A stretch of 64,000 bases of DNA from Halorussus limi (GTDB taxonomy: Archaea; Halobacteriota; Halobacteria; Halobacteriales; Haladaptataceae), in assembly GCF_023238205.1 (NCBI RefSeq), contig NZ_CP096659.1, positions 1,488,001 to 1,552,000 on the forward strand, written 5' to 3'. A model generated the notes under the pieces. It ran no database searches. It was not told where the DNA came from and worked only from the letters and a program-made list of their open reading frames with translations. The translations under genes and the position numbers were made by a program. Below are positions 574 to 54,760 of the stretch, piece after piece. Numbering within the stretch: the stretch's first letter is position 1; each line of letters begins with the position of its first letter.

Positions 574-1260
574 TCACTCGCCGCCGTCGATTTCGGCCCG
601 ACCGCTCGTCGCGCTTCGGATGCGGTCGCGCAGTTGCGCGCCCTCCTCGACTGGCACTCGGACCGCGAACGTCACGCGCTCGGCGTAGTCGGCGTCGAAC
701 TCGACGCCTCCTCGCGGCTCCGCCGCTCGCTCCTCGCGGGGCGCTTCGCGCCCCGCGCTCTCCAAAATCCCGCGCACGGTCCCCGAGTCGTCGTACTCGA
801 CGGCGACCGAGAACCGCTCGCGGGGGCGCTCCTCGACGATGCCGGCGTCCTCGATGGCGTCCTTGACGCCCCGCGAGTAGGCCCGCGCCAACCCGCCGAC
901 GCCGAGGTTCGTCCCGCCGTAGTACCGGGTCACGACCGCGACGGCGTTTTCGACGCCCTCCTGCTGGAGGACGTTCAGGGCGGGCTTGCCCGCCGACCCG
1001 GAGGGTTCGCCGTCGTCGTCGCCGTACTCCCGGAGCATCCCGCTGGCGGCCGCTCGCTCGGCGTCGCCGCTCGACTCCCGGACTCGGTAGGCCGGGACGT
1101 TGTGGGTCGCGTCGTCGTACTCGCCTCGAACCTCGGCGACGAACGCCTCGGCCTCCTCGCGGTCCGCGGCGGGCGCGGCGTGACCGACGAACTCCGAGCC
1201 CCGAATCTCGAAGGTCGCTCGGCCGCGGCCCGCCAGCGTCAGATAGGTGTCGTCGGTCAT
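574..1260 (-). CDS. YigZ/IMPACT (UPF0029) family protein
   Basis: 228 residues. The N-terminal UPF0029 domain shows the family core VTRYYGGTNLGVGGLARAYS and the upstream H-N-x-x-A-Y-R pattern (THNVPAYRV). A C-terminal ferredoxin-like (DUF1949-type) domain follows. The biochemical role is not settled; family members have been linked to translation control. The ATG at 1260 overlaps the stop of the upstream AI-2E gene by 4 bases (ATGA), which fixes the start; the longer open frame into that gene is spurious. Between ILESA and GVEFDADY there is a stretch of about 15 residues rich in Arg, Glu and Ala, encoded by a double palindrome at 711-757. It looks like an in-frame insertion. Confidence 0.85.
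   Translation of the reverse strand: MTDDTYLTLAGRGRATFEIRGSEFVGHAAPAADREEAEAFVAEVRGEYDDATHNVPAYRVRESSGDAERAAASGMLREYGDDDGEPSGSAGKPALNVLQQEGVENAVAVVTRYYGGTNLGVGGLARAYSRGVKDAIEDAGIVEERPRERFSVAVEYDDSGTVRGILESAGREAPREERAAEPRGGVEFDADYAERVTFAVRVPVEEGAQLRDRIRSATSGRAEIDGGE
711..757. repeat. Composite palindrome inside yigZ (hairpins A and B)
   Basis: Hairpin A is GCGGC-TCC-GCCGC at 714-726, inside CTCGCGGCTCCGCCGCTCG (711-729). Hairpin B at 735-757 has perfect 10-base arms, CGCGGGGCGC and its complement, around a TTC loop. The segment is translated in frame as an Arg/Glu/Ala-rich peptide that interrupts the conserved C-terminal domain. The same A-then-B order with a 6-base spacer (5 here) occurs inside the helicase gene at 53062-53105. 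Confidence 0.7.
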
Positions 1261-17674: not shown

Positions 17675-17919
17675 CAGACTCCCTCCCCGGAGAGCAGTCC
17701 GACGACCGACCGGCCCCAGAGGTACGCGAATCCGAAGACGAAGACCGCGACGCCGGCGAGCAGGAGATAGAGCGCGTCGACCCGCAGCAGTTCGAGCAGT
17801 TCGACCGCGAGGAGGGCGACCAGCAGGAGGGCGATTCTGTCGAGGCGGGCGAGACGCGAAGCGTCTCGAAACGCGAACGGTGAAACCGTGAGTGGGGCGA
17901 GCAGTTCGGGGTCGGCCAT
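17674..17919 (-). CDS. Small two-helix membrane protein (LDRL family, member 2)
   Basis: 81 residues (MADPELLAPL start). It contains RLARLDRIALLLVALLAVELLELL followed by a second hydrophobic helix ending in LWGRSVVG. The pattern matches the neighbour at 17387-17674. The start at 17919 was chosen since the longer open frame runs through the divergent peptidase promoter. An 8-base palindrome with a 3-base loop (17850-17868) lies within the coding sequence and encodes FRDASRLA, just before the shared motif. Confidence 0.6.
   Translation of the reverse strand: MADPELLAPLTVSPFAFRDASRLARLDRIALLLVALLAVELLELLRVDALYLLLAGVAVFVFGFAYLWGRSVVGLLSGEGV
17850..17868. repeat. Perfect 8-bp palindrome inside the 81-residue gene
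   Basis: CGAGACGC and GCGTCTCG flank a GAA triloop (plus strand). It has the same short-loop format as the palindromes in yigZ (735-757) and the helicase (53087-53138), but without an adjacent hairpin A. Confidence 0.5.
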
Positions 17920-52300: not shown

Positions 52301-54760
52301 CTACTCGTGCCCGCGCCAGAACCGCTCCAGGCCGAGCGACAGCATGTCCGGACTCACCGGTTGGAACTCCTTGCGCTCGGTTTCCGGGAAGTACGTCCGG
52401 ACGCTGTCCCACGAGTCGCGGGCGTACCGGGAGTCCACGAGGACGCGGACGCCGACCTCCTCCGGACCGCGAATCACGCGGCCGAGGGCTTGGCGGGCCT
52501 TCCGCACCGCGGGGACGGTCAGCGCGTACTCGAAGCCGTCGCCGAACGCGCGGTCGTAGGCTGTCTGGACCGCTTTCGTCCGGGGGCTGGCGGTGTTGAT
52601 GATGGGGACGCCACAGACAACCGCGGCGCTGAGTTTGTCGCCCTCGTAATCGACGCCCTCGGTGAGGGTGCCCCGGAGGCTGGTCACGAGGACCTTCGAC
52701 TCGCCCCCGAAGAACTCGGCTTTCAGGTCCTCCGTCGCGTCGTCGGCGCTGCTCTCGTCCAGCAGGACCGGCTTCTCGACCCGCGGATTCTCGCGGAGGG
52801 TCTCGGCGGCCCACTCCGCCTCGGCGTAGTTGGGCATCCCGACGAGGACGTTTCCGGGCGTCTCGCGCGCCACGTCGCGGAGCGCGTCGGCGTACATCCG
52901 CCGGGCTTGGGTCTCCTCGCCCGGCGCACCCCGATTGTCGTAGGTGAACTTCGGAACGTCCACCGCGAAGCTCTCGCGGTTCTCCGCCGGGAAGTTGAGG
53001 CCGTAGGTCCGCTCCTCGACCGGGCGGCCCTCCTCGGCCGCTCGCGGTTCGTCACCGTCGTCTCGCGGCGTTGCCGCTCGACTGTCCGCGGAGCTTCGCT
53101 CCGCGCTACTCGCGTTCTTCGAGGCGCTTTGCGCCTCGCCTGCTATGTGGTTCAGCCCCGTCACCTCCTCGAACACGTCGATGGGTTCGAGGGTCGCGCT
53201 CATCAGGACGCCGCCGCCGAACTCCGCGAGTCGCTCGCCGATGGCGTCGCTGGGCACGCAGTTCTGCATGGCGAGGCTGGCGTTGTACGCGCGCCGCCAC
53301 GAGGTGTCGGGTTCCTTCTCGTTCCACGTGCGTTCGAGTTCGATTTCCCGGAAGTAGCGCTCGTGGTCGTTGCGGTACCACTCGCCGAGGACCCGACCCG
53401 CGGCCGGGGCCGCCCGCTCCTTCTCGTCGTCTTCGGCCTCGTTCAGGATGCGTGCGACGACTGCGCCGACCGCCTCGGCCTTGACCCAGATACCGTCGTG
53501 GTATCCCTCCGACTCGGCCCACGCGGAAATCTCGTCCTGCTGTGGTTCGGTGGGGTCCCGGAGCGGAATCTCGTCGTCGGGCAGGTCGTGGAGGTTCGAC
53601 TTCCAGCCGCGGTGTTCGCGTTCGAGGTGGGCCGTGACCCGGCGGTCCAACTCCTCGCGCAACTCTCGGAAGAAGTCGCGGGTCGCTTCGAGGTCCGAGA
53701 GGCTCACGTCGCTGTCTTCGAGTTCGCCGCGGACGAGGTCGGCGTCGGCGGCGGTGTGAGTCTCCTTGTCGCCGTCGAATTTGAGGGGCTGGATGACCCG
53801 CGTGAGTTCCGACTCGGCGTCCCGGAGGGTCTTGTCGCCCACCGCGTCGCTCACGAGGTCCCTGACGCGGGGTTCGAGCATGTGGGCCTCGTCGCAGACG
53901 ACGAAGGTGGACGAATCGAGCAGGGCGCCCGTGAATCCGCCGGTCGTCACGGGGTCGAACGCGTGGTAGTAGTTCCCGACGACGACCTCCGCGTGGGGCA
54001 GTATCGCGCCCATCATCGAGTGGGGACAGGTGCCGTGCTGGACCGACAGCGAGACCAACTCCTCGGGGTCGATGAGTCCCATGCCGTCGAAGTCGAAGGG
54101 GACCGCCTCCACGGCGTCGCCGTCCTCGGGCACGTCTTCGAGGAACCGGGCGTAGAACGGACAGTACTCCACGTCGTCGTACTCGGGCATCTCCGGCGGG
54201 TAGGGCGTCGGTTCGCCGGCGGTCTCCAGATAGCTCGCCGCGGCCCGGCCCTGCGCTCCCGAGTCGGCCAGTCCGGTCTGCTGGCTCCGGGCGCGCGAGA
54301 CGAGGTTCCCCGCGGTGGTCGCGCCGCCCTCGCCGGTAATCGCGCGGGTGTCTTCCCGGAGCGACTCGCACCGCTCGTAGACGTTCCCGTCGTCGATGCC
54401 GCCCGCGTTCTCGCGGTTGTACGGGCAGACGTCGGCCTTCCCGACGAGGGTCAGAGTCGTCACCGGGTCCCAGTCGGTCGGCAGGTTCGCGTTGATTGTC
54501 CGGAGGTCCTCCTCGAACTGGCGGAGCTGTTGTTTGACGCTGGTGAGGACGACCACGCGCTCGTAGTCGCTCTGGGGGTCGCGGACGAGGTCGATGCCCG
54601 CGGTCAGCGCCAGCATGGTCTTGCCGGTCCCGCAGGCACCCTCGACCACCGCGAACCCGCCCTCCTCGGCGGTGTCGATGGCGGTCTCGATGCCGTCGAC
54701 CTGCTCGTCGTACGGGTCGGCGTGGCCGAACACCTCGCGCCACGAATCGCTTGCGGTCAC
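52301..54760 (-). CDS. XPD/DinG-type ATP-dependent DNA helicase
   Basis: 819 residues, GTG start. Walker A is at GACGTGKTMLAL (Lys47), motif II is VVCDEAHML, and later motifs GVLMSATLEPI and TAVPAVRKARQALGRVIRGP are clear. Four Cys (DVCPYN, ERCESL, EYCPFY, GTCPHS) likely hold the iron-sulfur cluster of XPD/DinG helicases. It unwinds DNA in repair or resolves structures. GTTTGAA at 54785-54791 (minus TTCAAAC) lies 25-31 bases upstream, supporting the GTG; the extra 5' open frame is spurious. A low-complexity stretch just before GLNFPAEN is encoded by palindromes at 53062-53138. Confidence 0.92.
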   Translation of the reverse strand: MTASDSWREVFGHADPYDEQVDGIETAIDTAEEGGFAVVEGACGTGKTMLALTAGIDLVRDPQSDYERVVVLTSVKQQLRQFEEDLRTINANLPTDWDPVTTLTLVGKADVCPYNRENAGGIDDGNVYERCESLREDTRAITGEGGATTAGNLVSRARSQQTGLADSGAQGRAAASYLETAGEPTPYPPEMPEYDDVEYCPFYARFLEDVPEDGDAVEAVPFDFDGMGLIDPEELVSLSVQHGTCPHSMMGAILPHAEVVVGNYYHAFDPVTTGGFTGALLDSSTFVVCDEAHMLEPRVRDLVSDAVGDKTLRDAESELTRVIQPLKFDGDKETHTAADADLVRGELEDSDVSLSDLEATRDFFRELREELDRRVTAHLEREHRGWKSNLHDLPDDEIPLRDPTEPQQDEISAWAESEGYHDGIWVKAEAVGAVVARILNEAEDDEKERAAPAAGRVLGEWYRNDHERYFREIELERTWNEKEPDTSWRRAYNASLAMQNCVPSDAIGERLAEFGGGVLMSATLEPIDVFEEVTGLNHIAGEAQSASKNASSAERSSADSRAATPRDDGDEPRAAEEGRPVEERTYGLNFPAENRESFAVDVPKFTYDNRGAPGEETQARRMYADALRDVARETPGNVLVGMPNYAEAEWAAETLRENPRVEKPVLLDESSADDATEDLKAEFFGGESKVLVTSLRGTLTEGVDYEGDKLSAAVVCGVPIINTASPRTKAVQTAYDRAFGDGFEYALTVPAVRKARQALGRVIRGPEEVGVRVLVDSRYARDSWDSVRTYFPETERKEFQPVSPDMLSLGLERFWRGHE
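53062..53138. repeat. Three palindromes inside the helicase gene (hairpins A, B, C)
   Basis: Hairpin A: CTCGCGGC-GTT-GCCGCTCG (53062-53080). Hairpin B: CGCGGAGC-TTC-GCTCCGCG (53087-53105), 8-base arms. Hairpin C: CGAGGCGC-TTT-GCGCCTCG (53120-53138), 8-base arms. A and B have the same order and almost the same spacing as in yigZ (711-757). The encoded peptide includes SRAATPRD, close to ERAAEPRG in yigZ. Confidence 0.7.

Follow-up and report, generated by a model that had tools for sequence, protein, structure and literature searches.

The yigZ gene of Halorussus limi raises the question of how a protein gene came to carry a short segment encoded by palindromic DNA, and whether this segment is one copy of a dispersed element. 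The window, by which we mean the whole 64,000-nucleotide stretch of H. limi DNA that was analysed, contained the following features, where R1 denotes a covariance model built from seven copies of the element:

574..1260, minus strand: yigZ (UPF0029 / DUF1949) gene, bearer of the insertion (translation; Pfam PF01205 and PF09186)
708..760, minus strand: palindromic element, yigZ copy (R1 match, E=9e-13; net +45 bp; orthologue sites empty)
17845..17895, plus strand: third copy in the window (R1 match, E=2e-10)
52304..54700, minus strand: helicase gene, bearer of the second copy (part of the gene was used as a query)
53030..53143, minus strand: composite (nested) copy in the helicase gene (R1 match at 53059-53110, E=5e-14; net +102 bp)

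A sequence-only reading had claimed that a palindromic element at 711-757 was inserted in frame into yigZ. This claim held, as the bases were as described and the insert was missing in most orthologues. Motif A, CTCGCGGC-TCC-GCCGCTCG (711-729), was followed by the spacer CTCCT (730-734) and by hairpin B (735-757), which had perfect 10-bp arms (CGCGGGGCGC/GCGCCCCGCG) and a TTC loop. On the coding (minus) strand the element read GAGAGCG CGGGGCGC-GAA-GCGCCCCG CGAGGAGC GAGCGGC-GGA-GCCGCGAG. The description of motif A as a hairpin held only in part, since its stem was 5 bp long (GCGGC/GCCGC) and the conserved CTC/TCG flanks were non-complementary.

The insert comprised 15 residues (GREAPREERAAEPRG) and was missing from 27 of 30 aligned orthologues, so that the idea survived this check. 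In those 27, from Halorussus and other haloarchaea, ILES led to VEFDADY directly or via a few residues. At the DNA level, the gap at this site was typically 12 nt in all the yigZ loci gathered and 57 nt here, a difference of 45 bp. The Pfam match to DUF1949 started only where the insert ended. The same site was occupied in two Halorussus relatives. In one of them (G017), whose YigZ protein was 71% identical to the one studied here, the hairpins were intact and different, and in the other (G005) the copy was decayed. In the AlphaFold model of YigZ (25 aligned orthologues, mean pLDDT 81.6), the insert was predicted to be a disordered loop linking a helix to a strand, with pLDDT <50 at residues 173-182. 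The yigZ gene of Halomarina oriensis had its own copy, in a different loop.

A second low-confidence loop of YigZ (SSGDAERAAASG) was found at residues about 62-73, at about 1020-1080 of the window. Its DNA, GAGTCGAGCGGCGACGCCGAGCGAG, resembled a decayed motif A. The intact Halomarina oriensis copy (L276 8181-8235) was located in the loop corresponding to these residues.

Searching with the yigZ segment as a DNA query recovered three further copies in the genome, all within or at the end of genes. The R1 model produced 37 genome matches at E<=0.01, including 26 at E<=5e-6. A control model, R2, was made by reversing R1's sequences, with composition and pairing preserved, and it produced one genome match at E<=0.01 (best E 0.0045). 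In 1.27 Mb of other named haloarchaeal loci there were 27 matches to R1 and none to R2. The A-B architecture, which was to be sought in the genome and its relatives against a matched control, was thus strongly enriched, with many copies in genes and in frame. It occurs far above chance, and the element is a real dispersed family.

Copies were present in 18 out of 18 Halorussus genomes, with 17-64 matches each. Within Halobacteriales, matches at E<=1e-4 were detected in 168 of 195 genomes, representing 55 of the 66 genera, and the order-wide copy counts are to be read as "at least", as the candidates per genome were limited. In a phylum-wide draw, only one genome outside Halobacteriales had a match, which was single and weak (E=1.7e-5). 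These out-of-order genomes serve as a weak control because most yielded far fewer candidates, probably being less GC-rich. In 7.3 Gb of plasmids, the 52-nt consensus matched haloarchaea only. The four plasmid records examined, from Halorussus, Natrinema and Halorientalis, had the copy on the sense strand within an annotated CDS, where it encoded peptides such as NSEAQRASNSRAGEPRD and ESEARSASEQSSGEQGDPRD. No match to the element was found in phage records. Genome sampling relied on a 400-kb set of stretches, and the searches were otherwise of whole genomes.

Hairpins in general were not enriched in the window (24 vs 17-30 in shuffles), and generic hairpin counting would therefore have overlooked the element. 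The pattern CTCGCGGC-N3-GCCGCTCG with 1 mismatch was uninformative, with 15 matches against 18 for the backwards pattern. A regex grammar applied to 464 kb returned 5 matches, too few for judgement. These methods gave way to the covariance model with its reversed control.

The unit was about 48-54 bp long and had two hairpins. Its consensus order was a lead xx[T/G]AGCG, hairpin B, a 6-9 nt spacer and motif A, followed mostly by C or A. Motif A had the consensus GAGCGG[C/T]-NNN-[G/A]CCGCGAG. Hairpin B had 8-10 bp arms of variable sequence, usually CGAGGCGC-[GAA/AAC]-GCGCCTCG. Arms such as CGAGGCGC, CGCGGAGC, CGCGGCGC and CGAGACTC were found among the copies, together with others, and complementarity was kept. 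In 58 aligned copies, 98.2% of 742 cells were paired, a value that 0 of 500 shuffles reached, and double-sided changes (75) far outnumbered one-sided ones (4). The paired percentage is inflated because R1 rewards pairing; G-U pairs, though, would have been tolerated by R1. The near lack of G-U intermediates indicates a DNA-level process and not RNA selection. We infer that arm complementarity is maintained at the DNA level, either by template correction within the hairpin or by re-copying from other elements.

The alternative is that the copies are RNA-level elements, that is, mRNA hairpins under selection for stability, pausing or regulation. Strong covariation supports this, as does the finding that copies are nearly always on the sense strand of genes. 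However, G-U intermediates are almost missing, no Rfam family was recovered at the gathering threshold, positions within genes vary, and most orthologues have no copy. Decayed copies are also known (yigZ of G005 and aspA of G009). We consider an RNA-level origin very unlikely.

Coding calls relied on a simple codon model, for which 97 ORFs served as the training set. Of the 73 copies examined, 50 were inside genes and in frame: 46 were in phase 0 on the sense strand, 3 in phase 1 sense (yigZ among them) and 1 antisense. In the H. limi genome, this was the case for 21 of the 25 classified copies. The dominant sense frame encodes S-E-A-R-S-A-S ... S-G-E-x and has no stops and few Arg/Pro or hydrophobic residues. 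Such a frame bias has a chance probability of ~7e-28, assuming equal use of five open frames, although orthologous copies were counted and the events are not fully independent. The hosts included UDG, MutL (C-terminal domain), PurL, PurD, PurK, a SAM hydroxide adenosyltransferase, an M42 peptidase, a sulfatase and GNAT proteins, as well as genes that we take to be FBPase and an aspA-like deacylase, these names being our own reading of the sequences. Pfam domains were recognisable around the insert in host genes. The element appears to add a hydrophilic loop of about 16 amino acids, rich in Ser, Ala, Glu and Arg, without breaking the protein. This is inferred from sequence alone, and translation of the loop and its retention in the mature protein are likewise inferred.

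Information per codon position in the element was 1.27, 1.43 and 1.66 bits. Since third positions were the most conserved, the likeness among copies is one of DNA, and the similarity of the yigZ and helicase peptides, to which the sequence-only reading had pointed, is a by-product. GC bias contributes to third-position conservation, yet the order in which G and C alternate is fixed. These data bear on a further alternative, in which hydrophilic low-complexity loops of halophiles arose convergently and the hairpins resulted from codon bias in GC-rich DNA. In its favour, host sites are often variable loops, where other genera can have acidic inserts that are unrelated (as at the peptidase S9 site). 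Against it are the third-position maximum, the nearly empty reversed-model control, the use of the same DNA in different frames (phase 1 in yigZ) and the existence of identical intergenic copies. Convergence can be all but excluded.

The insertions are precise, relatives have empty sites at the same places, and within genes the insertion lengths are multiples of three. The aspA anchors were separated by 51 nt in H. limi and one other genome (G002), by 39 nt in G009, where the copy is decayed, and by 3 nt in all others shown, so that the insertion amounted to a net +48 bp relative to empty sites in close relatives. For FBPase, three Halorussus genomes gave distances of 66, 48 and 111 nt and a genome from a different genus in the family gave 48 nt, compared with -9 to 15 nt elsewhere. 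Other pairs of occupied and empty sites measured 51 vs 3, 54 vs 6, 57 vs 6 and 63 vs 6 nt. No clear target-site duplication was found at the element borders, where there was an ambiguous 2-3 bp GA/GAG repeat at both ends, and no terminal inverted repeat was seen there in a comparison with MITEs. Several sites were occupied in more than one species (FBPase, aspA, yigZ, thioredoxin, NEIRDRNWG and LTPPEF). Either some copies are old, therefore, or the sites are hot spots, or genes have been exchanged.

A peptidase-like loop (LTPPEF...YPLV) was occupied in several genera (L299, L298, L311, L301, L292 and L115), representing either a hot spot or an old insertion.

Some copies were composite or nested. 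The claim of a second copy in the helicase gene, at 53062, held, and the copy proved to be a composite with two B hairpins (53120-53138 and 53087-53105), motif A at 53062-53080 and an outer remnant at about 53040-53059. The site was empty in all 16 Halorussus congeners in which an orthologue was found, with 12 nt between the anchors against 114 nt here. In the other relatives shown the gap was 9-12 nt, with the exception of one that had an unrelated insert there. The helicase composite was 91% identical over 102 bp to the purK copy of another species (G004), with the same nested structure. H. limi had a simple purK copy, lacking the inner unit, at the same site as that of G004. Copies, the nested composite included, are thus present in unrelated genes, as their sequence identity shows. 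That one composite occurs at 91% identity in unrelated genes from two species argues strongly for copying. Mobility in the strict sense remains unproven, as there is neither a transposition enzyme nor an experiment.

The hairpins could instead have formed where they stand, if replication switched template at GCGAG-like targets, without any copy having moved. Part of the left arm is already present in some empty sites (GGCGAG in the helicase gene, AGCGCGG in yigZ), and the arms are variable yet complementary, both of which fit this explanation. However, folding in place cannot account for motif A, loop and lead being conserved from one unrelated site or genus to another, nor for a composite 91% identical in two genes. 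We consider it unlikely.

As judged from ORFs and the coding profile, the third copy in the window (17845-17895) seems to lie close to the N-terminal end of a small ORF for a putative membrane protein, in antisense orientation. Alternatively, it is located in the gap preceding a gene that starts near 17888 on the plus strand.

The best overall explanation, and in our judgement very likely the correct one, is that the yigZ segment belongs to a dispersed, non-autonomous family of palindromic DNA elements in Halobacteriales, of which it is one copy. Its spread and the selection acting on it are inferred. The element would spread in the form of a DNA hairpin, either because an unidentified enzyme acts on it in trans or because replication switches template. 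Insertion would be broad, and purifying selection would then leave in-frame copies in soluble surface loops. No mobilising enzyme was identified for the element.

One candidate source of such an enzyme is suggested by the possibility that IS200/IS605-type transposons left the copies behind as remnants, similar to PATEs and moved by a hairpin-recognising Y1 (HUH) transposase. Their size and subterminal hairpins are PATE-like, and there is no clear target duplication (PMC3119063). However, no PF01797 Y1 transposase was found in the H. limi genome or in 7 other Halorussus genomes, all of which have copies. A resident Y1 transposase is therefore not needed, and as the mover in H. limi it is ruled out. 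In addition, R1 gave only weak matches, none above 19 bits, in eight loci of other genera that encode Y1 transposases, tnpB-only elements being outside the scope of this search, and PATEs are described as having conserved ends, whereas the arms of the element vary. A transposon-remnant origin is unlikely. A bolder form of our preferred reading, the dispersed element, would see here a new order-wide class of mobile archaeal coding palindromes that have no resident HUH transposase, whose arms are rewritten in concert by DNA-level copying and which give extra surface loops to housekeeping proteins of Halobacteriales. We would not venture to say whether this version is right or wrong.

Rickettsia is the chief known host of dispersed in-frame coding palindromes. 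The comparison with Rickettsia palindromic elements (RPE) made in the sequence-only reading held as one of kind, and homology is not claimed. Like RPE (Ogata et al. 2000, as described in PMC10969869), the haloarchaeal elements are short palindromic DNA that is scattered through unrelated genes for proteins, keeps the reading frame, adds a peptide and has no enzyme of its own. They are multi-copy, and their in-frame insertions are missing in orthologues, as expected of this kind. Unlike RPE (about 100-150 bp), the haloarchaeal element is archaeal, GC-rich, about 50 bp long and a modular two-hairpin unit with interchangeable arms. That it works like RPE is suggested by analogy only.

REP and REPIN sequences, associated with RAYT transposases, are also small hairpins that are often paired or nested, with some intragenic cases (PMC3733652). 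Typical REPs are extragenic and GTAG- and CGTC-tagged (PMC3733652; REP/RAYT features are also given in PMC12306157). In contrast, a GTAG tag was present in 10 and CGTC in 0 of 73 copies of the element, no RAYT (Y1 transposase) was found in the H. limi genome, and its classified copies were mainly inside genes and in frame, as counted above. The coding palindromes of Nematomorpha mitochondria are inverted repeats within translated genes, perfect ones in that case. Unlike those of the element, both of their arms encode conserved protein sequence, and they do not represent one family inserted at dispersed places (PMC6649704).

PATEs are the nearest described haloarchaeal repeats (PMC3119063). PATEs and SMRs of Haloquadratum walsbyi resemble the element in being transposase-free palindromic repeats with nested targeting of one another's palindromes and no clear target duplication. 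PATEs derive from IS605-type ends, with terminal-only forms of 52 bp (PMC3119063). Unlike the element, an in-frame coding family is not described in the bearing sections of that paper. No link between the element and PATEs was found, given the weak R1 matches (<=19 bits) in the 8 Y1 loci and with tnpB-only elements not covered. The sequence-only reading knew of no such family in haloarchaea, and we found no earlier description in the open-access literature searched either. Most subscription papers were outside this search, and priority is uncertain.

The element represents an independent family across a whole archaeal order, found in DNA repair and purine synthesis genes. As haloarchaea are culturable and genetically tractable, movement of the element, arm complementarity and the gain of protein loops become testable. 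Annotation and alignment of haloarchaeal proteins are also affected, as these inserts came in as DNA repeats and are not conserved protein features.

Longer and nested forms were also found. In G017, five intergenic copies (L128-L132) had the same 53-bp core, each within a longer cassette of multiple hairpins. T-rich tracts precede these copies, which probably reflect the recent expansion of a related form found between genes. In L133 and L144 another hairpin (GGCGGT / GAAACCGCC) carried the element in its loop. By analogy with the targeting of PATEs by SMRs in Haloquadratum, it is possible that elements target one another. In Halobaculum gomorrense, a longer-armed relative occurred as two identical intergenic copies in tandem (L310, 6516-6581 and 6642-6707).
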